A stretch of DNA of 64,000 nt. Origin: Phytoactinopolyspora halophila (GTDB taxonomy: Bacteria; Actinomycetota; Actinomycetes; Jiangellales; Jiangellaceae). Positions within the stretch are counted from its first letter, which is position 1, and each line of letters begins with the position of its first letter. The notes under the pieces are model-generated. The model worked only from the letters and a program-made list of their open reading frames with translations. It was not told where the DNA came from and searched no databases. Positions 2,647 to 40,868 of this stretch are shown here, piece by piece. The stretch is taken from the NCBI RefSeq assembly GCF_003287285.1, contig NZ_QMIG01000002.1, positions 124,001 to 188,000 on the forward strand, read 5' to 3'. The translations under genes were made by a program, and so were the position numbers.

Positions 2647-3771
2647 TCAGTCCGACGGCTCGCCCGGTTCGGCATCGATGAGCGGGCGCAACCACTGTTG
2701 GAACGGTTCGCACGGGTCGTCGGGCGTGGCGACCCACTCGGCGGGTAACGGTCGTTCGTGACCAGCTACCGCCTCCAGGGCGATCGTGCCTACCCGCACG
2801 TCAGAGGTGCCCGAGCCTTCGATGCGCACCATGAGGCCGCCATCACCCCTGTCGACGTGTCCGGCGGCCGCTTGCCCGAGCTCGTACGCGAGGCGGCGGT
2901 CCTGCGAGCTCGTCGCGAAGCTCGCCGCACGTTGCAGCGTTCCGAGAACCTCGCCGCGCGCGGCGATCCCGAGCTCGCTGCCGACGATTCGTGCCAGTGT
3001 CAGCGCGACACCGCCGATCAACGGCTCGTTCAGATGCTGATGGGTATCGCGGGGCACGAGGCCCTCGCTCACCACCACCAGGGCATGTCCTACCCGGCGA
3101 TAGGTCTCGTCGATCGCGGCGACGATCGACTCGGTCGGGACCGCCATCTCCGGCGTATAGATCAAGTGCGGGGCCGTGTCCGGATCATCGCGGAACAGCG
3201 CGGTGCTGCGGGCGAGCCAGCCGACATTGCGTCCCATCGTCTCCACGATGCGCACCTGCTCGAAGTTCGCCATGCTCGCCAGGTCCAGACCGATGTCGCG
3301 GACGGCAAGCGCGAGAAATCGAGCCGCGCTGGGGAATCCCGGCGTCCAATCCGTGCCTTGCAGGTCGTTGTCCACCGTCTTCGGGACGCCGACGACACGA
3401 AGCTCAGGGTACGCCTCGTGCGCGAGCCGCTGCAGTTGTGCGGCGACATACATCGTGCCGTTGCCGCCGATCAGCACCAACCGATCTGCTCGATGGGCCC
3501 GGCAGGTCTCCAGGGCGGCGCGCCAGTGCCGGTCGTCGAGACGGAACCGTCCCGATTCGAGATGCGCTGCCGGCTCCGCCCGCCACGTCGACGTGTCTTC
3601 CGGTAACAGCGGGGTGGTCCAGTCGTTGACGAGACCCCGGATCCCTTGCCGGACGCCGAGTACCGTGCCCTCGGCGGCATCGACCACACCGGCCAGGCTC
3701 GCATTGACGACGGCGGTCGGGCCGCCGCACTGGGCGACCAGCAATCTCGATCGTGGAACCCGAGTACTCAT
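2647..3771 (-). CDS. Phosphofructokinase-family sugar kinase, possible sulfofructose kinase
   Basis: A 374-residue kinase of the PfkA superfamily. Visible motifs are GGPTAVVNAS (16-25), GGNGTM in the nucleotide loop (102-107), PKTVDND with the catalytic Asp (130-136) and MGRNVGWLA (179-187). The usual LGxxQRGG hexose-binding loop reads LGTLQRAA (276-283), so substrate choice may differ from fructose 6-phosphate. The ATG at 3771 overlaps the preceding stop as ATGA, implying translational coupling. As last gene of an operon with a YihT-like aldolase, it probably phosphorylates C1 of a ketose or sulfoketose. ATP versus PPi use is not settled: the PKT motif is shared with PPi enzymes, while Gly at 105 resembles ATP enzymes. 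Confidence 0.8.
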   Translation of the reverse strand: MSTRVPRSRLLVAQCGGPTAVVNASLAGVVDAAEGTVLGVRQGIRGLVNDWTTPLLPEDTSTWRAEPAAHLESGRFRLDDRHWRAALETCRAHRADRLVLIGGNGTMYVAAQLQRLAHEAYPELRVVGVPKTVDNDLQGTDWTPGFPSAARFLALAVRDIGLDLASMANFEQVRIVETMGRNVGWLARSTALFRDDPDTAPHLIYTPEMAVPTESIVAAIDETYRRVGHALVVVSEGLVPRDTHQHLNEPLIGGVALTLARIVGSELGIAARGEVLGTLQRAASFATSSQDRRLAYELGQAAAGHVDRGDGGLMVRIEGSGTSDVRVGTIALEAVAGHERPLPAEWVATPDDPCEPFQQWLRPLIDAEPGEPSD

Positions 3772-4862
3772 GACGCGTCCTCGCCAAGCAGATCGGGGCG
3801 CACCACGATCAGCGGCTTGATAGCCGTTCCGGCACAGAACGCCTCGAACGCCTGCCCCACCCCTTCCAGCGGCCACCGGTGGTCAAGCAGCCCGCGCAGG
3901 GCGGCCCCTCGCTCGCGCATCAGCGTCCACGTGTCCTCCATCTCGGCCAGTGGGAAATAGAAGGAACGCACGTAGAACGCATCCTTACGCCGGAATTCGG
4001 GCACCGCCGGGACGACCCAATCCGCCGACCCTTCTCCGAGCAGGAGCACCGAACCTCCAGGCGCCACTGCCCGGCGGGCGAGATCTCTGCCGTCGTTGGT
4101 GCCACTCGCTTCGATGACGGCGGCCGAGCTATTGACCGCCACGTCGGACAGGGTCGTCGCACCACGGCGCCGTGCCTCGGCGAGACGCACCGGATCGGGA
4201 TCGACCGCCGCGACATCGTGATATCCGAACGCCGGCGCGGCAATTACGGCACCCAATCCGAGCGGGCCACAACCCACCACGAGGAGCCTCTCCCGAGCTG
4301 CGGTATCGGAGATACGGGAGAGCATGCGCAGACCGTGTGCCGTCGTTCCCAGTGTGTCGAGCGCCAGTACCGCGTCGTCGAGGGCGATCCCGTCCGGGAC
4401 ACTGACGGCGTTGGCGGCCGGAACGGTGAGATATTCCTGGAAGCCGCCGTCTCGCTGCCAGCCGATCAGCTTTCCGGCATTCTCGCACCGTTGGGTGAGG
4501 TTCCGGGCGCATGCGGCGCAGTGTCCGCAGAACTCCGGTATGTAGATGATGACGCGCTCACCGCGCCGGTTCACCGGCACACCGGGACCGGTCGCATCAA
4601 TGACGCCAGCGATCTCGTGCCCGCTGACGACGCTGGAGCCAGCGTGCCAGAGACGCTTGTCCGACCCACACAACGCAGTGCAGGCGACTGCGATACGGAC
4701 CTCGCCCGGTCCGGGTGGTCCGTACTCACGGGTGCTCATCTCGCTCGTTCCCTCACCGGGTAGCGTGACTACTCTCCCGAGCACCGTGCCGACGTTCTCG
4801 GCCGACGTGTCCGTCCCCGTTCCGGCCATCGCTCCAGATGCCGCGCCGTCGTCGCTGTCCAT
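3768..4862 (-). CDS. Zinc-dependent alcohol dehydrogenase (MDR family)
   Basis: A 364-residue medium-chain dehydrogenase. Catalytic-zinc ligands fit C65 (in CGSDKRLWHAG) and H82-E83 (SGHE). Structural-zinc cysteines are C112, C115, C118 and C126. The Rossmann motif VVGCGPLGLG follows. The ATG at 4862 has AAAGGACGG upstream, although the first 20 residues are low-complexity and unlike the family. It lies 21 bases after the second permease and overlaps the kinase gene. In the operon it could reduce the three-carbon aldehyde released by the aldolase (for example sulfolactaldehyde) or oxidise an incoming polyol to the ketose that the kinase acts on. Sequence alone does not decide. Confidence 0.85.
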   Translation of the reverse strand: MDSDDGAASGAMAGTGTDTSAENVGTVLGRVVTLPGEGTSEMSTREYGPPGPGEVRIAVACTALCGSDKRLWHAGSSVVSGHEIAGVIDATGPGVPVNRRGERVIIYIPEFCGHCAACARNLTQRCENAGKLIGWQRDGGFQEYLTVPAANAVSVPDGIALDDAVLALDTLGTTAHGLRMLSRISDTAARERLLVVGCGPLGLGAVIAAPAFGYHDVAAVDPDPVRLAEARRRGATTLSDVAVNSSAAVIEASGTNDGRDLARRAVAPGGSVLLLGEGSADWVVPAVPEFRRKDAFYVRSFYFPLAEMEDTWTLMRERGAALRGLLDHRWPLEGVGQAFEAFCAGTAIKPLIVVRPDLLGEDAS

Positions 4863-4883
4863 GTGTATCCGTCCTTTACCGGG

Positions 4884-5708
4884 TCAACGTCCTGCACCTG
4901 CGGTCATGCCCTGCACGATCCCGCGTTGCGCGATGATCGTCAGAATGAGTGCGGGCAAGCTGATCATGGTGGCCGCGGCCATCAGGCCACCCCAGTCTTG
5001 ACTTCCCTGGCCGATGAAGCTGAACGCGATCACCGGCAACGGCATGGTCTCGTTCTGCGACAGGGCCAGCGAGAACAGGAAGTAGTTCCACGCGAAGATG
5101 AAGCACATCAGGCAGGCGACGGCCACTCCGGAACGGGCCAATGGCAGTGCCACCTTCCGGAAAACCTGCCATTCCGTACACCCTTCCACATAGGCGGCCT
5201 CCAGCACCTCGGTCGGAATCGCTTCGAAGAACGAGATGAGCAGCCAGACGGCAAGCGGCAACGTGATGATGCAGTGGATAAAGATGAGCAGCGCATAGTT
5301 ACGTGGCGTGGTTTCCAATGCACCCAATGCCACCGCGAGGGCGAACCACGGAATGACGAACAACGTTCCCGGCGCCATTCGAGCGACCAGCATGAAGAAC
5401 CCGGTTCGGGTCAGCCCGAAACGCGCGACGGCGTAGGCGGCAGGGGTGCCCAGGACGAGCCCCAAGAGAGTGGCGCCACCAGCGATCAACAGGCTGTTGG
5501 CGATGAACCGCAGGAAGTCGAACCGCTCGAACAGCTCGACATAGTTCTGCAAGGTCGGCGCGAAGAAGATCTTCGGTGGCAGCGCGTTGATGTCGACGTT
5601 CCGTTTGAACGACGAGGTGACCATCCACAGGACCGGCCCCAGGAAGATGACCACAACGATCGCGATCTGGAGCCACGTCGCGACGAACCTTCGACGACTA
5701 AGCCGCAT
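4884..5708 (-). CDS. Carbohydrate ABC transporter permease, MalG-like
   Basis: A 274-residue CUT1 inner-membrane permease with six predicted membrane segments, starting with LQIAIVVVIFLGPVLWMV. The cytoplasmic EAA loop reads EAAYVEGCTEWQVFRKVALP, which docks the ATPase. GGAGGT precedes two in-frame ATGs; the second (5708) has correct spacing, the first (5714) abuts the site. Its 5' end overlaps the preceding permease gene, the normal MalF-MalG arrangement. With the partner permease and the lipoprotein it would import an oligosaccharide, glycoside or sulfosugar. Confidence 0.92.
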   Translation of the reverse strand: MRLSRRRFVATWLQIAIVVVIFLGPVLWMVTSSFKRNVDINALPPKIFFAPTLQNYVELFERFDFLRFIANSLLIAGGATLLGLVLGTPAAYAVARFGLTRTGFFMLVARMAPGTLFVIPWFALAVALGALETTPRNYALLIFIHCIITLPLAVWLLISFFEAIPTEVLEAAYVEGCTEWQVFRKVALPLARSGVAVACLMCFIFAWNYFLFSLALSQNETMPLPVIAFSFIGQGSQDWGGLMAAATMISLPALILTIIAQRGIVQGMTAGAGR

Positions 5709-6681
5709 CGGCATACCTCCGACGCAGGAACGTGATCAGGCCGGCGATCACGATCACGAGAAGCAACAGGGTCAGCATCAGCGTGGCCGCGTAGCTCATG
5801 TCGAAGTACTGGAAGCCACGGCGATAGGCGTAGATATTCAATGTCAGCGACGCGTCGAGCGGTCCGCCCTGGGTCAACACGTAGATGGTGTCGAAGAAGC
5901 GCAGCAGGTCGACGCTACGGATGAGGATCGCCACGAAGATGATCGGCTTGAGCAGCGGAAGCGTGACACGGAAGAAGGTCTGCCGTGGCGACGCCCCATC
6001 CATGATCGCGGCCTCGAACGGTTCTTTCGGTAACGCCCGCATGCCGGCGAACATCAGCAGCCCCATGAACGGCGACCATTGCCAGATATCGACGATCGCG
6101 ATTGACATGAGGACCGTGGAAGGATCGCCCAGCCACGGAAGGCCAGACAGTCCGACCAGGTTCAGCAGGTAGTTCGCGAGCCCGAACTGCGGGTTGTACA
6201 GCAGCAGCCAGAGCAGGCTGATGGCAACCGGCGCGATCATCGATGGCAAGAGCAAGAAGGCCTGGACGAACTGCCGCGCGCGAATCTGGCGGTCGAGTAG
6301 CTGGCCCAAATAGAGCCCGATGCAGGTCTGGCAAACCAGCAACGACACGTACAGCGTCAAGGTGATCCGCAACGAATCCCAGAATTGGGCGTCCTCGACC
6401 ATACGTTGCAGGTTGGAGAATCCGGTGAATTCACCGAATCCTTGCGCGGGCGTCCACTCGACCGTGGAGAGCACGATCGCGTAGACGACGGGGAACAGGA
6501 TGAGCGCCAGGAGCGCGATCCCGGCCGGACCCGTCATCGTGATCATGGCCATCCGCGACCGGCCAGGACCGATCGCGCGGCCGGAACGGGCCGGACGGGC
6601 TGACGCGCGCCGCCCGAGGCGGCCGCGAAGTCCCCTGCCGTTGTCCCGTTCCCCGACGCGGCTGGAGGTTGGAGACGTCAT
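5698..6681 (-). CDS. Carbohydrate ABC transporter permease, MalF-like
   Basis: A CUT1 permease of about 327 residues with a charged N-terminal tail of some 45 residues and six predicted membrane segments (first is GIALLALILFPVVYAIVL). The EAA loop is EAAIMDGASPRQTFFRVTLP. The ATG at 6681 (MTSPTSSRVG) is chosen; GGAGGAGAA is about 14 bases upstream, slightly far, but no nearer start exists. The gene sits between the binding protein and the second permease. No ATPase gene is present in the operon, so a shared MsiK/MsmX-type ATPase elsewhere is implied, as is usual for actinobacterial CUT1 systems. Confidence 0.9.
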   Translation of the reverse strand: MTSPTSSRVGERDNGRGLRGRLGRRASARPARSGRAIGPGRSRMAMITMTGPAGIALLALILFPVVYAIVLSTVEWTPAQGFGEFTGFSNLQRMVEDAQFWDSLRITLTLYVSLLVCQTCIGLYLGQLLDRQIRARQFVQAFLLLPSMIAPVAISLLWLLLYNPQFGLANYLLNLVGLSGLPWLGDPSTVLMSIAIVDIWQWSPFMGLLMFAGMRALPKEPFEAAIMDGASPRQTFFRVTLPLLKPIIFVAILIRSVDLLRFFDTIYVLTQGGPLDASLTLNIYAYRRGFQYFDMSYAATLMLTLLLLVIVIAGLITFLRRRYADAA

Positions 6682-6727
6682 GGGAGTGCTGATGAGTTCT
6701 CCTCCGACTCGGTGAAACGGGCCGGCG

Positions 6728-8059
6728 CTAGCCGAGCACCGTTTCCAGCTCGGACTGGATCTGTTGCGCCGCCTCCGCGGCGTCCATGTTGCCGGCAATG
6801 ACCTGGCCGACCCCGTCGCCGATGATCTGCCGGATCTCCGGCTGGTTCTCTCCGGGCGGTGCTACCTCCGGATGCCCGTCGGTCTGAATGACGTCAAGCG
6901 CTTCGGCCCATTCGGTCAGCGCCGGCCGGTCCAACGTTTCCTGGAACTCCTCGCTCTCCCATGTCGAGGCTCGCGGGCTCGCGATGCCGTCCATGGCGAG
7001 CTGGAGTTGCATCTCGGGGCTCGTGGCCCATTTCATGAACTCCCAGGCGGCGTCCTGGTTCTCGGAGTACGGCGACATCGAGATGCCCCACTGCAACACT
7101 GTCGGGTGTTGACCACCGGGCCCGGGCGGTGTCGGCATGACGCCGACGTCCTCGGCGACCGTGGAATCCTCCGGATCGATGACCGAGGAGATCTCGTTGG
7201 ACGATTCCACCGACATCCCCGCGTGTCCCTGGGCGAACAGCTGTGACGACTGGGTGAACGAGTAGTTGAGCACCCCCTCGGGGCCGTGGTCACGGGCAAG
7301 CGCGACGTAACGCTCGATGGCCTCGACCGCCTCGGGCTCGTCGAAGTTGGGGGCGCCGTCGTCGTCCAGCCACTCCAGTCCCGTGCCGTGGAAGAACGGG
7401 CCGAACGTGTACGGCAGCGCGGGCGCGAGTCCACGAATCGTCACGCCGGTCACCGAATCCTGGGTGGCGTCCTCGATGGCGGCGGCAGCGTCGATGAGCT
7501 CGTCTTGGCTCTTGGGGCGTTCGATGCCGTGCTCCTCGAAGAGGTCCTTGCGATAGAACACGACCGGACCTTCCACGATGATCGGCAATCCGAGCTGCTC
7601 ACCGTTGAACGCCTCGCCCTCCCACGGTGCCTGCTTGAAGTCGTCCCGATCCCAGTCGTCGGGGGTCGCCTCGGTGTCCTCGAGCCACGGGTCGAGCGGT
7701 TCGTAGAAGCCGGCGTCGGCGTACATCTGGCCCTCTCGTGATTTGAGCGACATGAAGACGTCGAAATCGGTGGAACCGGATTGCAGCTGGGTCAGGTGCC
7801 GGTCACGGGCTTGTTCTTCGGCGAACGTCTGCACCTCGACCGTGATCCCGGTTTCCTCCTCGAATTCGGGAATGTAGGGCTCGATGGCGGCGGTCCACGG
7901 GTGTTTCTGAGCCAGTAGGCTGATCGTCCCGCTCGGCTCGTACTCGCCGTCGGCTACGCCGGAGTCCGCGGCGGAATCGCCGTTGCCTCCGCAGGCGGCC
8001 AGCGTCATGCCCGCTGCGGCCACACATGCGGCTGTCTGCCACCAAGGGCGTACGGTCAT
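6728..8059 (-). CDS. Sugar ABC transporter substrate-binding lipoprotein
   Basis: A 443-residue extracellular solute-binding protein of family 1 (MalE/UgpB-like). The N-terminus has a lipoprotein signal with lipobox LAAC (Cys at about residue 23) and an acidic, Ser/Gly-rich linker, so it is anchored outside the membrane. Family features include the early AEEQARDRHLTQLQSGSTDFDV region and the C-terminal DAAWEFMKWATSPEMQ segment. AAAGGAGTCAACG precedes the ATG. The gene is second in the operon and sets the uptake specificity. The ligand is unknown; sulfoquinovose or a sulfoquinovosyl glycoside would fit the aldolase. Confidence 0.92.
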   Translation of the reverse strand: MTVRPWWQTAACVAAAGMTLAACGGNGDSAADSGVADGEYEPSGTISLLAQKHPWTAAIEPYIPEFEEETGITVEVQTFAEEQARDRHLTQLQSGSTDFDVFMSLKSREGQMYADAGFYEPLDPWLEDTEATPDDWDRDDFKQAPWEGEAFNGEQLGLPIIVEGPVVFYRKDLFEEHGIERPKSQDELIDAAAAIEDATQDSVTGVTIRGLAPALPYTFGPFFHGTGLEWLDDDGAPNFDEPEAVEAIERYVALARDHGPEGVLNYSFTQSSQLFAQGHAGMSVESSNEISSVIDPEDSTVAEDVGVMPTPPGPGGQHPTVLQWGISMSPYSENQDAAWEFMKWATSPEMQLQLAMDGIASPRASTWESEEFQETLDRPALTEWAEALDVIQTDGHPEVAPPGENQPEIRQIIGDGVGQVIAGNMDAAEAAQQIQSELETVLG

Positions 8060-8102
8060 CGTTGACTCCTTTGCCTGTCGCGGTCGGATGGTCAGTTGCG
8101 CG

Positions 8103-9005
8103 TTACGTCGGCCCAGCGGTCATGGCGGCATCGACAATCTGGGTCAGTTCCTGCAGGCGAGGGACCGACACATCGCCAAGGGCCTGATCGAGGTGGACAC
8201 TGCCGATCACCGGAGCCCAGACGGCCCGCCCGGCGAGGAACCCCGCGGCACCGGCGGAGCAGGCGATCTCCAGGGCGTGCGGGAACCGTTCGGGAGGGAC
8301 GCCCGTCGACAGCACCACCCATGGGGATGTGATCGCCTCGTCGAGCCGGCCACACCAGCGGCGCAGCTCGTCGTCGCTGCCCTCCTTGCCGAGCGGGATC
8401 TCCGCTTTGTACAGGTCGGCGCCGGCGGAACCGAGCTCCTCGGCGGCGGCGACGACCATCTCGTCGCGGTTCCAGGTGCGGCCGTCGACGGGCGGGCGAG
8501 CGACGGGTTCGAGAATGCTGATCATGTCGTGCCTGTGGCACCGCTCGAGAAACTCTCCGACGATCTCGGCACGTTCCCCGGCGCTGCCGTCGGGCCGGTA
8601 GACGATCAATTGTTTCAACGCCGTGGCCCCGCGAGCGGCCATCTCGGCCGGGTCCACGGTGTCGTCGACGACGGACCGCCCGATGTGCTCCCCGTGACCG
8701 GGCACGAAATGGTCGACCGCGGCGATGAGCCCACAGCCCGGTGCGATGGCTGCGCTGTCTACCACGGCGTCGAACCCGAGATGCTTGTCGACCAGGATGG
8801 CAGAGGCATGCGGGCTGAGTACCTGGGCGGCGCTGACCTTGAACTGCGTCAGCGTCTCGTCCCCCACCGGACGACCGCCTGAATGGCGTTCGAACATCGT
8901 GCGGAGGGCCTCGCGCTGATCGATCGCGACCATGGCGAACCCGCCGGATGGGCGCGCGAGGCTGGAGAGATCCCGCTGACCTGGTGTGATCGGGCGATAC
9001 GTCAC
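8103..9005 (-). CDS. YihT/LacD-family class I aldolase, candidate sulfofructose-phosphate aldolase
   Basis: About 300 residues. The sequence aligns closely with E. coli YihT from memory: PSGGFAMVAIDQREALRTMF, SAILVDKHLGF, ISILEPVARPP and GADLYKAEIPL all have near-identical YihT counterparts and diverge more from LacD. The lysine of GADLYKAEIPL (residue 200) corresponds to the Schiff-base lysine. YihT cleaves 6-deoxy-6-sulfofructose 1-phosphate to DHAP and sulfolactaldehyde; LacD cleaves tagatose 1,6-bisphosphate. A GTG start at 9005 has GAAGGGA six bases upstream; starts at 9011 and 9020 are in frame but badly spaced. It is first in the operon, divergent from a DeoR regulator, as YihW accompanies yih genes. 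Confidence 0.82.
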   Translation of the reverse strand: MTYRPITPGQRDLSSLARPSGGFAMVAIDQREALRTMFERHSGGRPVGDETLTQFKVSAAQVLSPHASAILVDKHLGFDAVVDSAAIAPGCGLIAAVDHFVPGHGEHIGRSVVDDTVDPAEMAARGATALKQLIVYRPDGSAGERAEIVGEFLERCHRHDMISILEPVARPPVDGRTWNRDEMVVAAAEELGSAGADLYKAEIPLGKEGSDDELRRWCGRLDEAITSPWVVLSTGVPPERFPHALEIACSAGAAGFLAGRAVWAPVIGSVHLDQALGDVSVPRLQELTQIVDAAMTAGPT

Positions 9006-9049
9006 CGGCATTCCCTTCACGTTTCAACAACAGATATGCGGACCTTAAC

Positions 9050-9100
9050 CCTTGAATGTTAATTAAGCAACATCTGATGTGATACTTTTATCGTTCAAGG
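9050..9100. promoter_or_regulatory. Candidate DeoR operator pair
   Basis: CCTTGAATG at 9050-9058 and CGTTCAAGG at 9092-9100 form an inverted repeat matching at eight of nine positions. Centres are 42 bp apart, four helical turns, in the AT-rich spacer between the aldolase operon and the DeoR gene. The right arm is close to the regulator's start. A looped or two-dimer operator is inferred. Confidence 0.5.
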
Positions 9101-9110
9101 AAAAAGGATT

Positions 9111-9929
9111 ATGGTCAGGGGTATCGACACGGATATGGAACACGACCGCCCGCTCCGCTACGACAACGCGCCGCGACGCCGCGAGCGGATCCTGGAGATC
9201 GTCCGCACGTCGGGATTCGTCTCCGTCGTCGAGCTCACGCACGAGTTGGGCGTATCGGGAATGACCGTGCGGCGCGACCTGAGAAAGCTCGAGGACTCCG
9301 GCGAGGTTCGCTCCGTCTACGGTGGCGTGACGCTGCCCAGCGACGGAAATCTGAGCGGATTCGACAGCCGGGCGATGGAGAACGCCGAGGCCAAGCACGC
9401 GATCGCGACGATGGCCATGCGCTTCGTCCAAGCCAACGACACCATCGCCATCGACGCGGGGTCCACCACGGCGTGTGTCGCTGTGAACCTCGACGGAAAC
9501 TTCGCTGGTGCCGTGGTGAGCCACTCCGTACCGGTCATCCAGCTACTCGTGGACCGGCCCGGCGTTCACGTCATCGGCCTCGGCGGAGACCTGCTGCAGT
9601 CGAGTCGTGCCTTTGTCGGGCCGATGACGGTGGATGCCGCTGGACGGCTCCAGGTGCGAACGCTCTTCCTGGGTGCAGCAGCGGTAGACGAGCGCGGGTT
9701 CTACGGTGTCACCGACATAGAACGGCCCACCAAACATGCCCTGATCGAAATAGCCGAGCGCGTCGTCCTGGTGATCGATCACACCAAATTCGCGGCATTC
9801 GCACCCGTCCGGCTGGGCCCGCTCTCCCAGCTATCCGCTGTGGTGACCGATTCCGAGCCGCCAACACCCATCGCGCAGGCGTTCGCCGAGTCCGGAGTAG
9901 AGCTGCACGTCGCACATGCGCAGGGCTGA
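9111..9929 (+). CDS. DeoR/GlpR family sugar-responsive repressor
   Basis: A 272-residue DeoR-type regulator. The winged HTH is at about residues 24-75 (RRRERILEIVRTSGFVSVVE then GVSGMTVRRDL), followed by the sugar-phosphate sensing domain related to ribose-5-phosphate isomerase, with DAGSTTACVA in the phosphate loop and GAAAVDERGFYGVTD later. AAAAGGATT abuts the ATG. Divergent orientation and the inverted repeat in the spacer suggest that it represses the aldolase-transporter-kinase operon and is released by a phosphorylated intermediate. In E. coli the equivalent sulfoglycolysis repressor YihW is also of this family. Confidence 0.92.
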   Translation: MVRGIDTDMEHDRPLRYDNAPRRRERILEIVRTSGFVSVVELTHELGVSGMTVRRDLRKLEDSGEVRSVYGGVTLPSDGNLSGFDSRAMENAEAKHAIATMAMRFVQANDTIAIDAGSTTACVAVNLDGNFAGAVVSHSVPVIQLLVDRPGVHVIGLGGDLLQSSRAFVGPMTVDAAGRLQVRTLFLGAAAVDERGFYGVTDIERPTKHALIEIAERVVLVIDHTKFAAFAPVRLGPLSQLSAVVTDSEPPTPIAQAFAESGVELHVAHAQG

Positions 9930-9967: not shown

Positions 9968-10459
9968 TCAGAAAGGCCACCACGGCGGCTCAGGGAACGG
10001 GATGTAGAAGATCTCACGGAAGACCACCGCCCCGACGAGGGACACGGCCACCGCCGTGAGCACCGATATGATGAGCGTTCGGCGACTACGCTCGCCGGCG
10101 AAGTAGAGCGAGGCGAGCGCCACCAGCAAGGCCGACATCGGCCAGAACCCGGCGACGTCCACGAGCAGGACGTAGCCGATGGCCAGCACCGCAAAGGCAG
10201 CCACGTCGGTTCCTCCGCCACGCAGAACGGGCGGCACGAGGGAACGCTTGTTCCCGTAACCCAGCAAGCCGCGGACCACCAGGATCACGCCGACGGCCGC
10301 GATCACGCCCAGCAGCCACTGCGGGTACACCCAGTCCAGCCAGCGGCCGCCGTCGCCGGTCCGCATGCCGAACAGTCCGGCCACGGCGAAGCACACACAT
10401 CCGGCGATGATCTCTTCACTGATCCGGAGCCGGCCCGGATTCTCCTCACGTGCTGGCAC
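9968..10459 (-). CDS. tctB: Tripartite tricarboxylate transporter small permease TctB
   Basis: A 163-residue membrane protein with four predicted segments, matching the TctB family (GLFGMRTGDGGRWLDWVYPQ region and the C-terminal REIFYIPFPEPPWWPF motif). It is the small membrane subunit that works with TctA and the periplasmic-type binder TctC to import citrate-like or other carboxylates using an ion gradient. The GTG start at 10459 lies inside the end of tctA with a 14-base overlap. Here it follows tctA, whereas tctC-tctB-tctA is the common order. Confidence 0.88.
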   Translation of the reverse strand: MPAREENPGRLRISEEIIAGCVCFAVAGLFGMRTGDGGRWLDWVYPQWLLGVIAAVGVILVVRGLLGYGNKRSLVPPVLRGGGTDVAAFAVLAIGYVLLVDVAGFWPMSALLVALASLYFAGERSRRTLIISVLTAVAVSLVGAVVFREIFYIPFPEPPWWPF

Positions 10460-11936
10460 GGCTGCGCTCCTTTTGCTTGCTCCACACCGACCACGCCACC
10501 GAGAGCAGGATCAAGACGATCAGGCCAATGCTCACCGGGCGAGTGAAGAAGACCTCCACGTACGACGAGGAGCGGGCGATTGAGATCGACTGGACGAGTG
10601 CGGGCTCCACGATCGGGCCCAGGATCACGCCGAGACCGATGGCTCCCTGATGGAAACCAAGATTCATCAGGAAGTAGACGATCAATCCCAGGCCGAGCAT
10701 CAGGTACACATCCGAGAGATTGCTGCGGATCGCGAACGCTCCCACCACCGACAGCAGGAAGACGATCGGGGCGAGCAGGTGCACCGGAATGGTCACCACG
10801 CGGGCGAGCTGCCCGGCCACCAGGCTGCCGACGACAAAGGTGAAGATCCCGGCTATCAGGATGGAGAAGGCGAATCCATGGACCAGCGTCGAGTCCCTCT
10901 CCATCAACTCCGGCCCCGGGCGCAGGCCCTGCAGCATCAAGGCACCCAGAATCACCGCGGCGGGTGCGGAACCGGGAACTCCCAGGGCAAGCATCGGCAC
11001 CATCGACGCCCCCGCGCCGCCGTTGTTGGCCGTCTCGGACGCGACCACGCCCTCGACGGCGCCCTTGCCGAACTTCTGCCGATCCTTGCTCCACCGCATC
11101 GCCTCGTTGTAAGAGACCAGCGCGGCAACGGGGCCGCCGGCACCGGGTAGCACCCCGATGCCGGCGCCCAGCAGCGAAGACCGGATCAGGTTGACCGGCT
11201 TGCGAAGTATTTCCTTGACCGTGGCCACGGCCGCCCCGGGCACGCGCTGGTACTGGCCCACGGTCGCTTCCTGGCGGCGCCGCCGCACCATGGTGAAGAC
11301 CTGCGGCATCGCGAAAATACCGATAAGGGCGACAACGAGTTCCACACCGCCATAGAGCTCCGGAAAGCCGAAGGTGTATCGGCTCGTCCCCCCGGTCGCG
11401 CTGAGGCCGATGGTTGCGATCAGCATCCCCATAGCACCGCCGGCCAGACCCTTCAAGATCGAATCTCCGGCGATACCGGCGATGATCGTCAGCGCGAAGA
11501 CACCGAGCCAGAAGAACTCGGGCGGGCCGAACTCCAATGCGGCCGTGGCCAGCGGCGGGGTGAGGAACAGGAACACCAGCGCCCCCACGATCGTGCCGAT
11601 CATGGAGCTGAACGACGCGGCGACCAGCGCCACCTGTCCCTTCCCCTGCCGCGTCAGTGGATTCCCGTCGAACGACGTGGCCAAGGCCGACGGCGTCCCC
11701 GGGGTGTTGACCAGGCACGCCGGCACGGCGTCGGCGAACATGGCCGCGACGTACAGCCCGCCCAGCATCGCCAGGCCCTGCCCGGGCGGCATGTTGAACG
11801 TGAACGGCAGCAGCAGGGCAGTGCCCATGGTGGCGGTGAGACCCGGGAGTGCACCGACCAGGATTCCCAGGACCACACCGACGAGCCCGAAAAAGAGATA
11901 CCCGGGGCCGAGCGCCGCGATCAAGCCGTCAAGCAT
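10446..11936 (-). CDS. tctA: Tripartite tricarboxylate transporter large permease TctA
   Basis: A 496-residue polytopic membrane protein of the TctA family, with about 11-12 hydrophobic segments. Family signatures seen are GALPGLTATMGTALLLPFTF near the N-terminus, PACLVNTPGTPSALATSFDG near residue 75, and the matching second-half motif LGVPGSAPAAVILGALMLQG. It forms the transport channel of a TTT system. AAAGGT lies seven bases before the ATG. It sits 85 bases downstream of tctC and overlaps tctB. The substrate is set by TctC and remains unknown. Confidence 0.93.
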   Translation of the reverse strand: MLDGLIAALGPGYLFFGLVGVVLGILVGALPGLTATMGTALLLPFTFNMPPGQGLAMLGGLYVAAMFADAVPACLVNTPGTPSALATSFDGNPLTRQGKGQVALVAASFSSMIGTIVGALVFLFLTPPLATAALEFGPPEFFWLGVFALTIIAGIAGDSILKGLAGGAMGMLIATIGLSATGGTSRYTFGFPELYGGVELVVALIGIFAMPQVFTMVRRRRQEATVGQYQRVPGAAVATVKEILRKPVNLIRSSLLGAGIGVLPGAGGPVAALVSYNEAMRWSKDRQKFGKGAVEGVVASETANNGGAGASMVPMLALGVPGSAPAAVILGALMLQGLRPGPELMERDSTLVHGFAFSILIAGIFTFVVGSLVAGQLARVVTIPVHLLAPIVFLLSVVGAFAIRSNLSDVYLMLGLGLIVYFLMNLGFHQGAIGLGVILGPIVEPALVQSISIARSSSYVEVFFTRPVSIGLIVLILLSVAWSVWSKQKERSRAST

Positions 11937-12021
11937 GAGCCGACCTTTCCCGTTCGTGAATCCGGCATCCGCCGGTCCGTGAAGCGGCGGACCACACGCA
12001 GATCATGAGGATGCGATCGGC

Positions 12022-13011
12022 TCACTCCTCGTCGAGCTGCTCGATCTCATCCGCGTGCGGAGCGGCGTCTTCGGCCGCCTCGAACAGTTCTTCTGAGAAG
12101 GCGAGCGCCTCATCGACATCTTGTTCGAGCGGGGTCAACGCCTCTTCCAGGAGGGCATCGTGCACCGCCTCGTCGTCCATGGCCGTCAAGATCGCCTCGT
12201 TCCACTCTGCGATCGCCTCGTCAGGCATGCCCGCGGGTCCGGCGATTCCCCAGGATGACGTCAGGTTGATGCCGTCGTATCCGGCTTCCTCGAACGTCGG
12301 CACGTCCTCGAGAACCGGTGACGACTCGGAACCAGTGATCGCCAATGCGCGCATTTGATCTTGATGTTGCATGACGTGCCTGGCTCCGAAGATCGCGGCA
12401 TCCACGTGACCTCCCTGAAGCTGCGGCACGATGCTGCCGACACCCCCGGAGACGGGCACGTAGGAGAGGTCGACACCGGTCCCGGCGAGGATCTCGCCGA
12501 TGGCGATCGTGTCACCCACGCCGGCGATCGTCAGGTCTCCGGGATTGGCCTCGGCTTCCTGGATGTAATCGTCGATCGTCTCGTACGGGCTGTCCTGGGC
12601 GACTGCGACGGCATTGGGCGTCGTCTCGGTCCACGCGATGTACTCGAAATCCTCCATCCCGTGGAAACCGACCTCTTCACCGAGGATGGTCAACTCCATG
12701 ATGTTGGGCGAGACGACGTTTCCAACCGTGCATCCGTCCGGCTCGGCGTCGGCGAGATTCTTCCACCCGAGGGCGCCATCCGCGCCCTCCATGTACACCG
12801 GATTGATGCTTGCCCCGAGCGACTCCTCCAGGCTTTCCTGCAGGCGCCGGAACTGCTGGTCGGACCCTCCACCAGGTGCGTAGGGGATGATGAACTCGAA
12901 AGCGCCGCAATCCAAGGCGGAATCTTCCGACCCGCTCTCGCTGCACGCTGTGACAAGCAAAGCGAAGAGCGGCATTGCCATGATCGCCCGCTTCACCGCA
13001 GACCACCTCAT
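12022..13011 (-). CDS. tctC: TctC/Bug-family carboxylate-binding lipoprotein
   Basis: About 329 residues. A lipoprotein signal ends in LVTAC (Cys about residue 22), followed by the Bug/TctC fold: FIIPYAPGGGSDQQFR for the first ligand loop, and later SWGIAGPAGMPDEAI. The ATG at 13011 has AAGGTGGA six bases upstream; an 86-residue in-frame extension toward 13269 is not protein-like. The protein is strongly acidic, and its C-terminus is Asp/Glu-rich, consistent with an extracytoplasmic protein of a salt-tolerant actinobacterium. It is first in the TTT operon and determines the substrate. Confidence 0.92.
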   Translation of the reverse strand: MRWSAVKRAIMAMPLFALLVTACSESGSEDSALDCGAFEFIIPYAPGGGSDQQFRRLQESLEESLGASINPVYMEGADGALGWKNLADAEPDGCTVGNVVSPNIMELTILGEEVGFHGMEDFEYIAWTETTPNAVAVAQDSPYETIDDYIQEAEANPGDLTIAGVGDTIAIGEILAGTGVDLSYVPVSGGVGSIVPQLQGGHVDAAIFGARHVMQHQDQMRALAITGSESSPVLEDVPTFEEAGYDGINLTSSWGIAGPAGMPDEAIAEWNEAILTAMDDEAVHDALLEEALTPLEQDVDEALAFSEELFEAAEDAAPHADEIEQLDEE

Positions 13012-13165
13012 CGTCAGTCCACCTTCCTCAGTCTCCATCCCTCGTGCACTCTCATTCGCAGCACGGGTGAGGTCGCGGCACGTGCTTACGACCAGGCCCC
13101 CGACTCCCACGCGCTGATCGCCGCTCCATTCGGCGGCTGGCAACATGTCGTAACGTGTAGATTGG

Positions 13166-13193
13166 ATCATATAATATGTAGGACTTCTGTCAA
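13166..13193 (-). promoter_or_regulatory. Promoter of the tct operon with overlapping palindrome
   Basis: On the minus strand TTGACA (13193-13188) and TATGAT (13171-13166) are separated by 16 bp, unusually close to consensus for this genome. The palindrome CATATAATATG (13168-13178) covers the -10, a position suited to a GntR- or FadR-type repressor. The rest of the 13012-13358 spacer is a leader of about 150 nt for tctC and the upstream region of the xylF-like gene. No other gene is seen in it. Confidence 0.6.
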
Positions 13194-30428: not shown

Positions 30429-31214
30429 ATGGATCGTCACGAGAGGCTCACGGCCATTCTCGACATGCTGTCCGATCAGGGATCCATTACCGTCCACCAA
30501 GCGGTCAACAGTCTCGACGCCTCGGCTGCGACGATCCGTCGGGATCTCGAACACCTGGCGAGTCAGCAGCTTCTCACCCGCACCCGTGGCGGGGCCGTGG
30601 CCTCGACGGTGTCATATGACCTCCCCCTGCGCTACAAGGCGGGCCGGCAAGCTCCCGAGAAGGAGCGCATCGCCCGCGCTGTCATCAAGCACATCCGCCC
30701 GGGCGCGATCGTCGGGCTCAATGGCGGCACCACGACGACCAACGTCGCGCGGGCCATCGCCACCCGCGACGAGTTCCACGACAACAAGTCCGGGCCGGGC
30801 ATTACCGTCGTGACGAATGCGCTGAACATTGCCAGCGAGCTCGCTGTCCGGCCCCATATCAAGGTCGTCGTCGTGGGCGGGGTGGTGCGCCAGCATTCGT
30901 ACGAGATCATTGGCCCGCTCGCCGAACGGCTCCTCGATGTCGTTGCCGTGGACGTGGCGGTACTGGGTGTGGACTCGGTGGATCCCGAGCACGGTGCCAT
31001 GGCCTACGACGACAGCGAGGCAGCCATCAACGCCCTGCTGGCTCGCCATGCCGACACGGTGATCGTCGCTGCCGACAGCAGCAAGCTCGGCAAGCGCGCG
31101 TTCGCGCACATCCTGCCGGCCGCGAACATCGACATCCTGATCACCGACACCTCCGCCGACGACGCCGAGATGGCCCGGCTCCGCGATGCCGGTATCCAGG
31201 TCGTCCAGGCCTGA
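30429..31214 (+). CDS. DeoR family regulator, AgaR-like
   Basis: A 261-residue DeoR-type repressor: HTH at residues 5-60 (TVHQAVNSLDASAATIRRDL), then the phosphosugar-sensing domain with GLNGGTTTTNVARAI, VVTNALNIASELAV, GVVRQHSYEIIG and VIVAADSSKLG. GGAG lies seven bases before the ATG (CTGGAGAGCTG). It precedes an isomerase-kinase-kinase-aldolase operon on the same strand with a 411-bp gap, and is its likely regulator; AgaR controls amino-sugar genes in E. coli. Confidence 0.9.
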   Translation: MDRHERLTAILDMLSDQGSITVHQAVNSLDASAATIRRDLEHLASQQLLTRTRGGAVASTVSYDLPLRYKAGRQAPEKERIARAVIKHIRPGAIVGLNGGTTTTNVARAIATRDEFHDNKSGPGITVVTNALNIASELAVRPHIKVVVVGGVVRQHSYEIIGPLAERLLDVVAVDVAVLGVDSVDPEHGAMAYDDSEAAINALLARHADTVIVAADSSKLGKRAFAHILPAANIDILITDTSADDAEMARLRDAGIQVVQA

Positions 31215-31625
31215 CGGATCCGCACCGGCCAGCCGGATGCCCGGAACGGTTGCGCGACGAACGGCGGATGGATCAGGCGCTCGAATATGACCGAAGAATC
31301 TTGTTTCACTTGAAAGTAATCATCGACATGCCAGCCGCTATCGCGACGCGGCGGACAGTCCGGCTCGATCACAACGGCTCCCGTTTCATATCTGGCTGTT
31401 CACAGGCTCCATCCGCCCGCAATTATCGGGAAATGTCCACTGAGCGTTTTGCGACCGCTAATGATTGTTCATGAGCTAAACACGGCGAAGTCGCTTGACA
31501 TTGTGCACACTTCGGGCAGAACATGATTACTGGTGCCACCGGGCGCCCGGCCCCCATCCAGACTCGTCGGTCCCGGCCGCGACGGCCTGGCGGTGCCGTG
31601 ACGAGTCGACGCACTGGAGAATCTC
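31215..31625 (+). promoter_or_regulatory. Upstream region of the amino-sugar operon
   Basis: This 411-bp spacer is AT-richer than its surroundings. It has a TTGACA at 31495-31500 without a clear -10 at 17-18 bp, a 12-bp palindrome TTTCACTTGAAA at 31304-31315 (TTTC/GAAA elements are typical of DeoR/AgaR sites), and GTGCAC at 31503-31508. No gene is seen. These are candidate promoter and operator parts only. Confidence 0.4.
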
Positions 31626-32528
31626 TTGTCGAGTACGACACACGTGCAAGCCGAGATCGAGAGCCAGCCCGCGTGCTGGCGGCGCGCGGCCGAGCTGACC
31701 CCGTCAGTCGCCACGGCGCTTCCCGGTACGGGCGAGCAGGTGGCGGTCATCGGTTGCGGCACGTCGTGGTTCATGGCCCAGGCGTACGCGGCACGGCGGG
31801 AGTATCGTGGACTCGGCCGCACCGACGCCTTCGCGGCCTCGGAGTTTCCCGTCCAGCGGCGATACGACCGGCTCGTCGCGATCACCCGTTCGGGAACCAC
31901 CAGCGAGGTTCTGGACGTGCTCCAGGAGCTCCACACGCACACGCCCACGGTCGTCATCACCGCAGACCCGTCGGCGCCGGTCGCGCACGCGACCGACGAG
32001 CTCGTCGTGCTCGATTTCGCCGACGAGAAGTCCGTGGTCCAGACCCGATTCGCCACGGCCGCCCTGGCCCTGCTCCGTACCCATATCGGGGACGAGCTCG
32101 ACACCGCGCGTGCCCAGGCCGAGGCGATACTCGCCACACCCATGGACCACACGCTCACCGAGTACCGGCAGTACGTCTTCCTCGGGCAGGGCTGGACGGT
32201 CGGGCTCGCTCACGAAGCGGCACTCAAGATGCGCGAGGCGTCCCTTTCCTGGGCAGAGTCGTATCCTGCCATGGACTACCGGCACGGGCCGATCAGCCTG
32301 GCCGACCCGGACAGCATGGTGTGGTTCATGGGTGGTGCCGCTCCGGACGGACTGATCGGTGAAGTCCGAGCTACCGGCGCCCGGGCTATCGCGGACGAGC
32401 TCGATCCGATGGCCGATCTGATCCGCACTCAGCGCCTCGCGGTCGCGGCCGGTCTCGCCAGGGGACTCGATCCGGACCGGCCACGCAACCTCAACCGCTC
32501 TGTCGTGTTGAAGGCAGATCGGCTGTGA
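31626..32528 (+). CDS. SIS-domain sugar isomerase, AgaS/GlmS-type
   Basis: A 300-residue protein with two SIS folds. QVAVIGCGTSWFMAQAYAAR and AITRSGTTSEVLDVL mark the first; YVFLGQGWTVGLAHEAALKM and EASLSWAESYPAMDYRHGPI the second, the latter typical of GlmS/AgaS deaminase-isomerases. AgaS converts galactosamine 6-phosphate to tagatose 6-phosphate plus ammonia. The start is TTG at 31626, with GGAG eight bases upstream. It is followed with a four-base overlap by the ROK kinase. Confidence 0.85.
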   Translation: MSSTTHVQAEIESQPACWRRAAELTPSVATALPGTGEQVAVIGCGTSWFMAQAYAARREYRGLGRTDAFAASEFPVQRRYDRLVAITRSGTTSEVLDVLQELHTHTPTVVITADPSAPVAHATDELVVLDFADEKSVVQTRFATAALALLRTHIGDELDTARAQAEAILATPMDHTLTEYRQYVFLGQGWTVGLAHEAALKMREASLSWAESYPAMDYRHGPISLADPDSMVWFMGGAAPDGLIGEVRATGARAIADELDPMADLIRTQRLAVAAGLARGLDPDRPRNLNRSVVLKADRL

Positions 32529-33499
32529 CCACGCCTCCCACGACGGCGCCTGCCGACGTTCCACCGCCCGACGCCGCTCCCGCCGACACGGTCATCGCGC
32601 TCGACGTCGGCGGGTCACGCCTCAAGGGTGCCGTCGTCGATGCCGGAGGCACGGCGGCAGCCACTGTCGAGTGGAGGCTCACACCCGAGGACGGAGCCGA
32701 CGCCGTCGTCACATCGGTGCTGTCGGCCCTCGTCAACCTGCGACATCACCCGGCCGCCGCGCACGCTCGTGCCGCCGGCCTGGCCGTTCCGGGACTCGTC
32801 GACACCACCTCCGGCCGTGCCATCTGGTCGGAAAACCTGCGCTGGAACGACGTCCCCATACGCGCGCTGGCCGAAGAGCGCACCGGACTTCCCGTGGCGC
32901 TGGGTCACGACGTCCGTGCGGGCGGCCTCGCCGAGGTTCGAGCCGGTGCGGCGCGCGGTGCCGATCACGCGCTCGTCGTGCCCGTCGGCACGGGAATCGC
33001 CGCCGCCATCGTCGTCGACGGGATGGTGATCGACGGCCGAGGGCTCGCCGGCGAGCTCGGGCACGTCGACGTCGGGTACGACGAGCCCTGCGCGTGCGGT
33101 GCCCGGGGCTGCACCGAAGCCGTGGCTTCGGCGGCCGCCATCGCCCGTCGATACACCCGCCGGTGCGGTCTCGCCGTTGACGGCGCTGCGGACGTGCTCG
33201 AACGCAAACATGCCGGCGATCCGGACGCCGAGGCCGTGTGGGCGGAGGCCATCGACGCGCTCTCCCGCGCCTTGGCGACCGCATGTTCCCTGTTGGCGCC
33301 CGAAGTCGTCGTCATCGGAGGCGGGCTGGCCAAGGCTGGCGCCGAGCTCTTCGACCCGCTGTCGGACCGCCTGGCCGGGCGCCTGACGTTCCAGGACCTC
33401 CCGCGAATCGTTCCCGCCGCACTGGGAGATCGAGCCGGCTGCATCGGAGCGGCGATGATGGCACGCGACCTGGTGGAAAGGGGCGGGACACACTCATGA
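32525..33499 (+). CDS. ROK family sugar kinase
   Basis: A 324-residue ROK kinase: VIALDVGGSRLKGAVVD for phosphate binding, VPVGTGIAAAIV, GELGHVDVGYDEPCACGARG and CTEAVAS for the zinc-binding signature CxCGxxGCxE, and VVIGGGLAKAGAELF. It probably phosphorylates an amino sugar (galactosamine or N-acetylgalactosamine) at C6. The GTG start overlaps the preceding stop (GTGA) and its stop overlaps the PfkB start (ATGA). The N-terminal 20 residues are Pro/Ala-rich and probably disordered. Confidence 0.9.
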   Translation: MTTPPTTAPADVPPPDAAPADTVIALDVGGSRLKGAVVDAGGTAAATVEWRLTPEDGADAVVTSVLSALVNLRHHPAAAHARAAGLAVPGLVDTTSGRAIWSENLRWNDVPIRALAEERTGLPVALGHDVRAGGLAEVRAGAARGADHALVVPVGTGIAAAIVVDGMVIDGRGLAGELGHVDVGYDEPCACGARGCTEAVASAAAIARRYTRRCGLAVDGAADVLERKHAGDPDAEAVWAEAIDALSRALATACSLLAPEVVVIGGGLAKAGAELFDPLSDRLAGRLTFQDLPRIVPAALGDRAGCIGAAMMARDLVERGGTHS

Positions 33500-34425
33500 C
33501 GGTCGTGACCGTGACGCCCAATCCTGCCCTCGATATCACCTACACCGTCGACGAGCTGCATCCCGGCCAGACGCACCGCGTACGTACCACGGCCAGCCGC
33601 CCGGGAGGCAAGGGGCTCAACGTGGCCCGGGTCCTCGATGCGCTTGGCGTGTCCGTGGCCGTGACCGGCATCGCCGGCGGGGCCGAGGGCGCGGCACTTC
33701 GCGAGCGGGCCGGTGCGCACGGATTGCGCGACACCTTCATCACCGCCGAGCTGGACACGCGCCGCACCGTGACGGTGGTAGACGACGCGACGGGCACGGC
33801 GACATCGTTCAACGAGCCCGGCCCCGCCGTGGACGCATCGACGTGGCGGCTTCTCCATGACCGGGTCGTGACACTGTGCGCCGACGCCGATGTCGTCACC
33901 GTCTCGGGAAGCCTTCCGCCCGGAGTGCCAGCCGCGGCCCTCGCCAGCCTCGTCGAGGCCGTGTCCGGCGCTGGCGTGCCCATTGTCGTCGACACGTCCG
34001 GCCCCGCGCTCCTCGCCGCCGCTCGCGCCCGGCCGTCGGCACTCAAACCGAACGCGGACGAGCTGCGCGAAGCGACCGGTATCGAGGATCTCCACCGGGC
34101 CGCCACCTGGCTGCGCCGGGAGTCCGGCGCCGCGGTCGTCGTCTCACTGGGTGCTGCCGGACTGCTCGCGGTCACCGGCGACGGCACCTGGACGGCACGG
34201 CTGCCGTCACCGGTCACGGGCAATGCGACCGGCGCCGGCGATTCTGTCGTCGCGGCGCTCGCCCGGGGCATGCAGGCGGGTTGGCGGTGGCCCGACACGC
34301 TCCGGCAGGCATGTGCGCTCTCCGCCGCCACCGTGCGCTCGCCCGTCGCCGGCGAGTTCGACGCCGCCAGCTGGCGCGCACTGGCGCCCACCATCGACGT
34401 CGAGGAGATAGAGGTCGTGGAATGA
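33496..34425 (+). CDS. PfkB-family 1-phosphofructokinase/tagatose-6-phosphate kinase
   Basis: A 309-residue LacC/FruK-type kinase. It starts TVTPNPALDITYTVDEL, has RPGGKGLNVARVL for sugar binding, and ends with the catalytic NATGAGDSVVAALARG including the Asp base. Members phosphorylate fructose 1-phosphate or tagatose 6-phosphate. In this operon tagatose 6-phosphate is the logical substrate. ATG at 33496, coupled by ATGA overlaps at both ends. Confidence 0.92.
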   Translation: MTVVTVTPNPALDITYTVDELHPGQTHRVRTTASRPGGKGLNVARVLDALGVSVAVTGIAGGAEGAALRERAGAHGLRDTFITAELDTRRTVTVVDDATGTATSFNEPGPAVDASTWRLLHDRVVTLCADADVVTVSGSLPPGVPAAALASLVEAVSGAGVPIVVDTSGPALLAAARARPSALKPNADELREATGIEDLHRAATWLRRESGAAVVVSLGAAGLLAVTGDGTWTARLPSPVTGNATGAGDSVVAALARGMQAGWRWPDTLRQACALSAATVRSPVAGEFDAASWRALAPTIDVEEIEVVE

Positions 34426-35267
34426 GCCTGACGACTACCGGCGAGATCGTGCGTCCCGCCAGCGCCGGCCGGCGCGGTGTGGGAGCGTTCAACGTCATCC
34501 TGCTCGAACACGCCGAAGCGCTCATCGCCGCAGCGGACGATGCCGGGCTTGCGGTCATCCTCCAGATCAGCGAGAACTGTGTCCGGTACCACGGCGCCCT
34601 CGCGCCTCTCGGCACGGCCACCCTCGACCTCGCTCGCCGCGCGCGCGTCCCCGTCGCGGTGCATCTCGACCACGCCACGAGCGTCGAGCTCGTGCACGAG
34701 GCCGTCGAGCTCGGCTTCAGCAGCGTCATGTACGACGGCGCGGCACTGGACTACGCGGCGAACGTGGCCCGCACCGCCGAGGTCGTGGCGCACTGCCACG
34801 AGCGCGGCGTCTCCGTCGAAGCCGAGCTGGGGGAGGTCGGCGGTAAGGACGGCGCCCACGCGCCGGGGGTGCGCACCGATCCGGGCGAGGCTCGGGCCTT
34901 CGCGCTGGATACCGGCGTGGACGCGCTGGCCGTCGCCGTCGGGAGTTCGCACGCCATGACCACACGGGAGGCCGTCCTGGACGAGAGCCTCATCCAGACG
35001 CTACACGAGTCCGTCGACGTGCCGCTCGTCCTGCACGGATCCAGTGGAGTTCCGGACGACGGGCTGGCCCGGGCCGTGCGCGCGGGAATCGCCAAGGTCA
35101 ACATCGCCACGCATCTCAACGCCGCGTTCACCCGGGCCGTTCGCGAACGACTGGCCCGGGACGAGGTCGTCGACCCCCGGACCTACATCGCCGCTGGCCG
35201 GGACGCCGTCACCACCGAGGCTGCCCGGATGATGCGGCTCCTGCACGCCGGCGCGGTTCCAGGGTGA
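34422..35267 (+). CDS. Class II ketose-bisphosphate aldolase, GatY/KbaY-like
   Basis: A 281-residue zinc-dependent aldolase. GVGAFNVILLEHAEALIAAA, VAVHLDHATS (catalytic Asp and zinc His), EAELGEVGG (Glu ligand), AVGSSHA and LVLHGSSGVPDDG (zinc histidines), and KVNIATHLNAAF are all present. It would split tagatose 1,6-bisphosphate to DHAP and glyceraldehyde 3-phosphate. It ends the operon and abuts the convergent SorC gene with no gap. Confidence 0.93.
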   Translation: MSLTTTGEIVRPASAGRRGVGAFNVILLEHAEALIAAADDAGLAVILQISENCVRYHGALAPLGTATLDLARRARVPVAVHLDHATSVELVHEAVELGFSSVMYDGAALDYAANVARTAEVVAHCHERGVSVEAELGEVGGKDGAHAPGVRTDPGEARAFALDTGVDALAVAVGSSHAMTTREAVLDESLIQTLHESVDVPLVLHGSSGVPDDGLARAVRAGIAKVNIATHLNAAFTRAVRERLARDEVVDPRTYIAAGRDAVTTEAARMMRLLHAGAVPG

Positions 35268-36194: not shown

Positions 36195-36248
36195 GACACC
36201 CTCCTCGGCTCACTCGACCCTCCGGCTCTGCACATATGAGCACACCGC

Positions 36249-36278
36249 TTGACGTTTGTGCAAACCGATGTCGATACT
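36249..36278 (+). promoter_or_regulatory. Promoter and SorC-type palindrome
   Basis: TTGACG (36249-36254) and GATACT (36273-36278) are 18 bp apart on the plus strand, and the palindrome GTTTGTGCAAAC (36254-36265) lies between them. The start codon of the dehydrogenase gene is at 36345. The arrangement fits a promoter controlled by the divergently encoded SorC protein. Confidence 0.5.
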
Positions 36279-36344
36279 CGCCGTCGCATTGCCACCGAAA
36301 CGGGCGAAGCCGCGTTGACACGGCATCGACGAGAGGAGCGCCAC

Positions 36345-38164: not shown

Positions 38165-38192
38165 CCATGACGAACGTCGTGGCGGTGAGGCC

Positions 38193-40756: not shown

Positions 40757-40868
40757 CGCCGCCAGAAGACGTCGGCGGAAGACGTCACCGGAAGGCATCG
40801 CCCGGACCTGGCCCCTTCCGCCGTGATTCACCCCTACCAAACCGGTCCCAACTGCAAAGGAGTTCACC

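Follow-up and report, generated by a model that had tools for sequence, protein, structure and literature searches.

A conserved actinobacterial operon pairing a SqiK-type kinase with a YihT-type aldolase: a candidate hybrid sulfo-EMP route with an unusual entry step

Introduction

Sulfosugars, the sulfur-bearing sugars of plants, account for much of the organic sulfur in the living world. To our knowledge, the known routes for their use begin from sulfoquinovose (SQ) or sulfofucose. Several such routes resemble the system described here. The sulfo-EMP cluster of Arthrobacter encodes YihS, YihV and YihT and a GabD/SlaB dehydrogenase (PMC8873060). The kinase of the sulfo-EMP2 pathway, SqiK, belongs to PF00365 (PMC9594981), and hybrid clusters that mix sulfo-EMP and sulfo-EMP2 enzymes are known from Actinobacteria, Firmicutes and Proteobacteria (PMC10599462, PMC9594981). 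Here we analyse an operon of Phytoactinopolyspora halophila that shares features with each of these systems.

Results

Organization of the operon and comparison with described systems

The window, i.e. the whole stretch of 64,000 nucleotides analysed, harbours a seven-gene unit at positions 2647-9929 (Table 1). Six minus-strand genes, from 9020 down to 2647, form a single tight run with short gaps or overlaps throughout, including an ATGA overlap between the PFK gene (start at 3771) and the dehydrogenase gene; the seventh, coding for a DeoR-family regulator, is divergent. A preliminary description of positions 2647-9005 had grouped an aldolase, a CUT1 transporter, a PFK, a zinc dehydrogenase and a DeoR regulator; all these genes were found, that of DeoR just beyond those coordinates. 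The full-length homologies, together with the recurrence of the whole block in four other genomes, rule out a chance arrangement. Reading the predicted genes of the window by eye, we noticed neither an SQ isomerase nor a sulfoquinovosidase, as had been described, and the operon itself has no sulfonate-specific gene and no phosphotransferase importer.

Table 1. Features of the operon and its divergent promoter (positions in the window)
Feature	Position	Strand	Remarks
PFK-family (PF00365) kinase, SqiK-like	2647..3771	-	catalytic D127, D129, R171, R72 kept; G104/K124/R164
Zinc-dependent medium-chain dehydrogenase	3768..4862	-	
CUT1 ABC permease 2	4884..5714	-	
CUT1 ABC permease 1	5698..6681	-	start inferred
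Lipoprotein solute-binding protein, CUT1	6728..8059	-	best solved relatives sorbitol-binding 4rya and 5iai; SmoF lower
YihT-type class I (DeoC/LacD superfamily) aldolase	8103..9020	-	Schiff-base lysine conserved
Candidate operator TGTTAATTAAGCAACA, divergent promoter	9057..9072	.	weak match to the SQ-cluster DeoR site
DeoR-family regulator, divergent	9111..9929	+	

Two other regions of the window were read from the sequence only. Genes for a TctB-TctA-TctC-like tripartite transporter lie directly behind the DeoR gene (9968-13170), outside the conserved operon set. A second sugar cluster (30429-41927) comprises a ribose-type ABC importer and DeoR, SIS-domain, ROK-like, PfkB-like, class II aldolase-like and dehydrogenase genes.

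Like the hybrid sulfo-EMP clusters, the operon combines a SqiK-type (PF00365) kinase, a YihT-type class I aldolase and an ABC importer. Unlike them, it lacks an SQ isomerase, a sulfoquinovosidase and SlaB, and it has a dedicated zinc dehydrogenase and a polyol-type transporter. It shares the kinase clade with the sulfo-EMP2 system of Bacillus urumqiensis, to which a locus of Paenibacillus ginsengihumi (L068) is similar, and the G104/R164 signature is as seen in L068. However, sulfo-EMP2 uses the class II aldolase SqiA and the isomerase SqvD, whereas the operon has a class I aldolase and no isomerase. The YihT-type aldolase is common to the sulfo-EMP (yih) clusters of Arthrobacter and Escherichia coli, and a DeoR-type regulator is found in the latter, but the PfkB kinase YihV and the isomerase YihS are replaced or absent, and there is no YihU or GabD. 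A cluster on a Cereibacter sphaeroides plasmid (L029) also encodes DeoR, a CUT1 transporter (37-45% identical), a zinc dehydrogenase and an aldolase (51% identical to that of the window), with no isomerase. It differs in its non-PFK-type sugar kinase, its additional SSADH and tartrate dehydrogenase and an ATP-binding protein encoded in the cluster.

The aldolase and the kinase belong to sulfosugar-type clades

Among solved structures, the aldolase matches YihT of Salmonella and E. coli over the whole protein, with E-values of about 1e-79 to 1e-82, versus about 1e-9 to 1e-12 for LacD. It is a class I enzyme of the DeoC/LacD superfamily, not a class II enzyme like SqiA, and its 46-48% identity to YihT genes leaves its fold clear. 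In a maximum-likelihood tree, it falls inside a 13-member clade (97/89) with the E. coli and Citrobacter YihT proteins, aldolases encoded in actinobacterial SQ clusters and their counterparts from the related operons. LacD lies apart from the YihT-type aldolases (100/99), so the possibility that the aldolase branches within LacD was not borne out. Column comparison showed that it keeps the YihT-class residues S13, A26, P58, A62, P112, V142, P165, D190, E195 and V255, all of which differ in a third group of paralogues, for which we use our own label 'Jiangella-type'. Structure matches, tree and residues thus uphold the earlier identification of a YihT-like, not LacD-like, protein, and its prediction as a YihT-type class I SFP aldolase of the sulfosugar kind is well supported. 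Its branch is long (1.12), which could mean an altered substrate. A single-sequence search of the genome contigs with the aldolase as the query gave no match. We rejected the notion that all neighbourhoods of YihT-like aldolases are sulfosugar loci: the neighbours in the Jiangella-type clade are four-carbon-acid-kinase-like and beta-glycosidase-like proteins (sequences read by eye).

The kinase is a PF00365 protein whose best-matching structures are PPi-PFKs. Its nearest relatives are encoded in the L178 (48% identity), L179 (45%) and L068 (41%) loci. Those of L178 and L179 adjoin YihQ-like, SftI/SqvD-like and SuyB genes, and that of L068 adjoins genes for YihQ (55%), SqvD, a class II aldolase and SlaB. 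The SQ isomerase of L068 (769.6 vs 700 bits) and the sulfoquinovosidase YihQ of L178 (832 vs 553) score above their curated cut-offs. In the kinase tree, a 100/99 branch separates 36 other kinases from a side that holds the window kinase, the four related operon kinases, those of L178, L179 and L068 and the E. coli PfkA outgroup; this support covers the side of the branch on which the window kinase lies, its placement within that side not being fixed.

The G104 and R164 pair is found in the window kinase and in seven of 97 homologous loci (L178, L179, L068 and the four related operons) and in none of the 81 homologues with D104. D104 is the residue of PPi-dependent enzymes; the presence of G104 therefore makes ATP the likelier phosphate donor, and the window kinase probably uses ATP and not PPi. 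The C1-transfer residues are intact, as are R243 and R252, which in E. coli PfkA bind the C6 anion, and this cationic site (R164, R243 and R252) is kept in all the operon kinases. R162, H249 and D104 are missing. We considered whether the absence of R162 and H249 points to a substrate other than a phosphate, and rejected this, as a PFK encoded next to fba also lacks both. The branch of the kinase is long as well (0.92), so an altered substrate could be envisaged here too. On the basis of its clade and genomic context, its prediction as a SqiK-type kinase of the sulfosugar kind is well supported. The PFK had been proposed to fit a sulfosugar route, and its type agrees with this, but the reason is a different one, namely its likeness to SqiK of sulfo-EMP2. 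Together, the kinase and the aldolase appear from their sequences to form a hybrid sulfo-EMP core, with enzymes from two sets.

Other kinases with G104 came to light in these comparisons. A distant member belongs to a sulfosugar-like cluster of Chlorohelix. A plasmid locus of Candidatus Chlorohelix (L064, 8628-29167) encodes a SqiK-like kinase, an SftI-like isomerase, a SlaB-like ALDH, sulfite reductase, siroheme proteins and TauE, and is likely a sulfosugar cluster in a phototroph. In Pelagibius (L082, 8949-11167), a zinc dehydrogenase (31% identical to that of the window) and a G104 PFK form a pair that adjoins TRAP transporter-like genes and a gene for a 480-residue protein.

The operon is conserved with its dehydrogenase and without an isomerase

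The same gene set is present in four further genomes presumed to be of the same family (loci L038, L039, L040 and L054). In all five genomes, the operon has a single dehydrogenase and a polyol-type transporter, and in none does it contain an isomerase. Furthermore, the SftI isomerase is absent from three of the five genomes (G010, G012 and G014). Genes of the AGE family whose products are 35-42% identical to YihS occur in G008, G067 and G010, so some relatives may have an isomerase. G008 harbours a complete SQ cluster (L037) alongside the operon (L038). Since no operon contains an isomerase and G010, G012 and G014 lack SftI, the window operon differs from an ordinary SQ cluster, and oxidation to a ketose is the most economical role for its dehydrogenase. 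We infer from these gene sets that it would act on the substrate in this direction. Thus, while hybrid sulfo-EMP clusters are already known, the constant presence of a dehydrogenase, the constant absence of an isomerase from the operon and the polyol-type transporter are distinctive here.

Some of the related operons carry extra genes, coding for an enolase-superfamily protein, an SSADH-like ALDH, a DUF2090-like aldolase or TauE. The TauE gene adjoins the aldolase gene in L040, and a SlaB-like ALDH is encoded in L038 and L040. The enolase-superfamily protein, of the mandelate racemase group, is encoded in L038 (7384-8574), L040 (7431-8630) and L054 (10977-12179); one may speculate that it is a dehydratase or, judging by mechanism, an enzyme eliminating sulfite from sulfolactate. 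In G012, the YihT-like aldolase is divided between two reading frames (L054, 9080-9984), by a frameshift or an assembly error.

Across 394 genomes of the class, the dehydrogenase had matches (E <= 1e-75) in five, which are precisely the operon carriers; as the profile was built from those genomes, the informative part is its absence elsewhere. The nearest relatives of the protein are threonine, sorbitol and galactitol-phosphate dehydrogenases. Nothing positive was found for its proposed substitution for YihU, a homologue of which is encoded elsewhere in the genome, on contig C26.

The solved relatives of the binding protein rank as in Table 1, 4rya being the nearest, then 5iai, and SmoF, an SQ-glycerol binder, lower. 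The sister protein of L040 gives the same top ranking, and the binding protein of the SQ cluster on contig C16 (see below) does not match those structures. Permease 2 is 46% identical to the permease of a Neorhizobium LacD cluster, and the window permeases and those encoded in the SQ clusters of the family are no more than 25-29% alike. We also considered whether the DeoR operator establishes a common sulfosugar regulon. The sequence TGTTGACTTTCCAACA recurs in the SQ clusters, but the idea was rejected: the window site reaches only 11.1 of 31.5 and is outscored elsewhere in the window, and the scores of Jiangella-type clusters are similar. The site is retained as no more than a candidate operator.

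Sulfosugar-type loci elsewhere in the same genome

A cluster on contig C16 (L035, 4213-17753) encodes an SftI-type isomerase (E = 3.6e-82, under the curated cut-off), a YihT-type aldolase, an importer, GH31 and GH116 proteins, DeoR and a PF03601 membrane protein, but no kinase. No homologue of the PfkB SF kinase was found in the genome at E <= 1e-15, and a PfkB kinase gene adjoins the aldolase gene in G008, G004 and G067; the C16 cluster thus appears to have lost its PfkB kinase. PF07221 (YihS) is absent from the genome, which holds only one other PF00365 gene, on contig C11.

A module on contig C39 (L208, 8907-16785) groups SuyA, SuyB (79%) and SlaB (57%) with two hydroxyacid dehydrogenases, one of them L-sulfolactate dehydrogenase-like, an SDR, an ABC importer, a galactonate-dehydratase-type enzyme and a DHDPS-like aldolase. 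It resembles the sulfofucolytic and sulfolyase set of PMC12421959 and is likely a sulfosugar Entner-Doudoroff and sulfolactate sulfolyase module in an actinobacterium. Through its SlaB-SuyAB part, the organism is equipped to use sulfolactaldehyde. A sulfofucose-like Entner-Doudoroff set (SDR, DgoD, DHDPS-like and SMP-30) is also found on a plasmid of Arthrobacter sp. YA7-1 (L030, 2529-15143), joined with PfkB, a YihT-type aldolase, a SlaB-like ALDH and TauE.

Discussion

The operon likely encodes a hybrid sulfo-EMP core with an unusual entry, as judged from the family, clade and residue pattern of its kinase and aldolase, the conserved gene set and the other loci. We give an even chance to a route of this type in which oxidation replaces isomerisation at the entry. 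An open-chain or reduced sulfosugar would be imported by the CUT1 transporter and oxidised by the zinc dehydrogenase to a 6-deoxy-6-sulfo-ketose. The SqiK-type kinase would phosphorylate C1, probably from ATP, and the aldolase would cleave the product into DHAP and sulfolactaldehyde, which would then pass to the SlaB-SuyAB module on C39. The kinase could also serve the SQ cluster on C16. All the substrates, the direction of the dehydrogenase and the cross-talk between loci are predictions in this scheme. The narrower proposal, in which one actinobacterial family would break down a reduced or open-chain sulfosugar, for instance a sulfo-alditol, by sulfoglycolysis with dehydrogenase entry, is tentative and somewhat doubtful. 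A reduced sulfosugar would reconcile the sulfosugar-type enzymes with the polyol-type transporter; no natural sulfohexitol or other reduced sulfosugar was found in the literature searched. The sulfo-EMP variant of the preliminary description stands with respect to the type of kinase and aldolase, but not to a match with the Arthrobacter gene set, which it had raised as a question (YihS, YihV and YihT with GabD/SlaB; PMC8873060) or the substitution of YihU.

The transporter, with its nearest solved relative 4rya and its permease 2 resembling that of Neorhizobium, rather suggests an unsulfonated hexitol, oxidised to a ketose by the dehydrogenase; enzymes co-opted from sulfosugar families would then phosphorylate the ketose at C1 and cleave it into DHAP and glyceraldehyde. 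The Neorhizobium LacD-dehydrogenase-kinase cluster shows the same architecture with LacD-type aldolases, and the long branches of the aldolase and kinase would fit such a recruitment. We consider this a serious alternative but the less likely one, since both enzymes lie in sulfosugar clades and retain the residue signatures, all the operon kinases keep the cationic C6 site, and TauE (L040) and SlaB-like ALDHs (L038 and L040) accompany related operons. The polyol pathway of oxidation, ketose phosphorylation and cleavage, previously put forward as the alternative, is supported by the transporter and may fit the entry step even with a sulfonated substrate.

It is improbable that the operon belongs to the SQ pathway proper, supplying the C16 cluster with an SF kinase, a second aldolase and an importer while its dehydrogenase replaces YihU in reducing sulfolactaldehyde to DHPS. 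The C16 cluster does have an isomerase and an aldolase but lacks the kinase whose gene neighbours that of the aldolase in G008, G004 and G067. However, G008 keeps the operon despite its complete SQ cluster, G010, G012 and G014 have it without SftI, and the SQ-cluster permeases of the family are poorly alike. Finally, a LacD-type tagatose or fructose bisphosphate pathway with an ordinary 6-phosphofructokinase, suggested by annotation models in which the family of the aldolase bears the name tagatose 1,6-diphosphate aldolase and that of the kinase the name PPi-PFK, is very improbable given the position of the aldolase outside LacD (100/99), the lack of R162, H249 and D104 in the kinase, the second PF00365 gene on C11 and the lack of a phosphotransferase importer in the operon.

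The hybrid sulfo-EMP route with oxidative entry would give a concrete case of a sulfoglycolytic pathway distributed across several loci, in which one kinase family possibly replaces the lost kinase of another. A conserved operon with a kinase and an aldolase of sulfosugar type, but with a dehydrogenase where the isomerase would be expected, suggests that another natural substrate exists.
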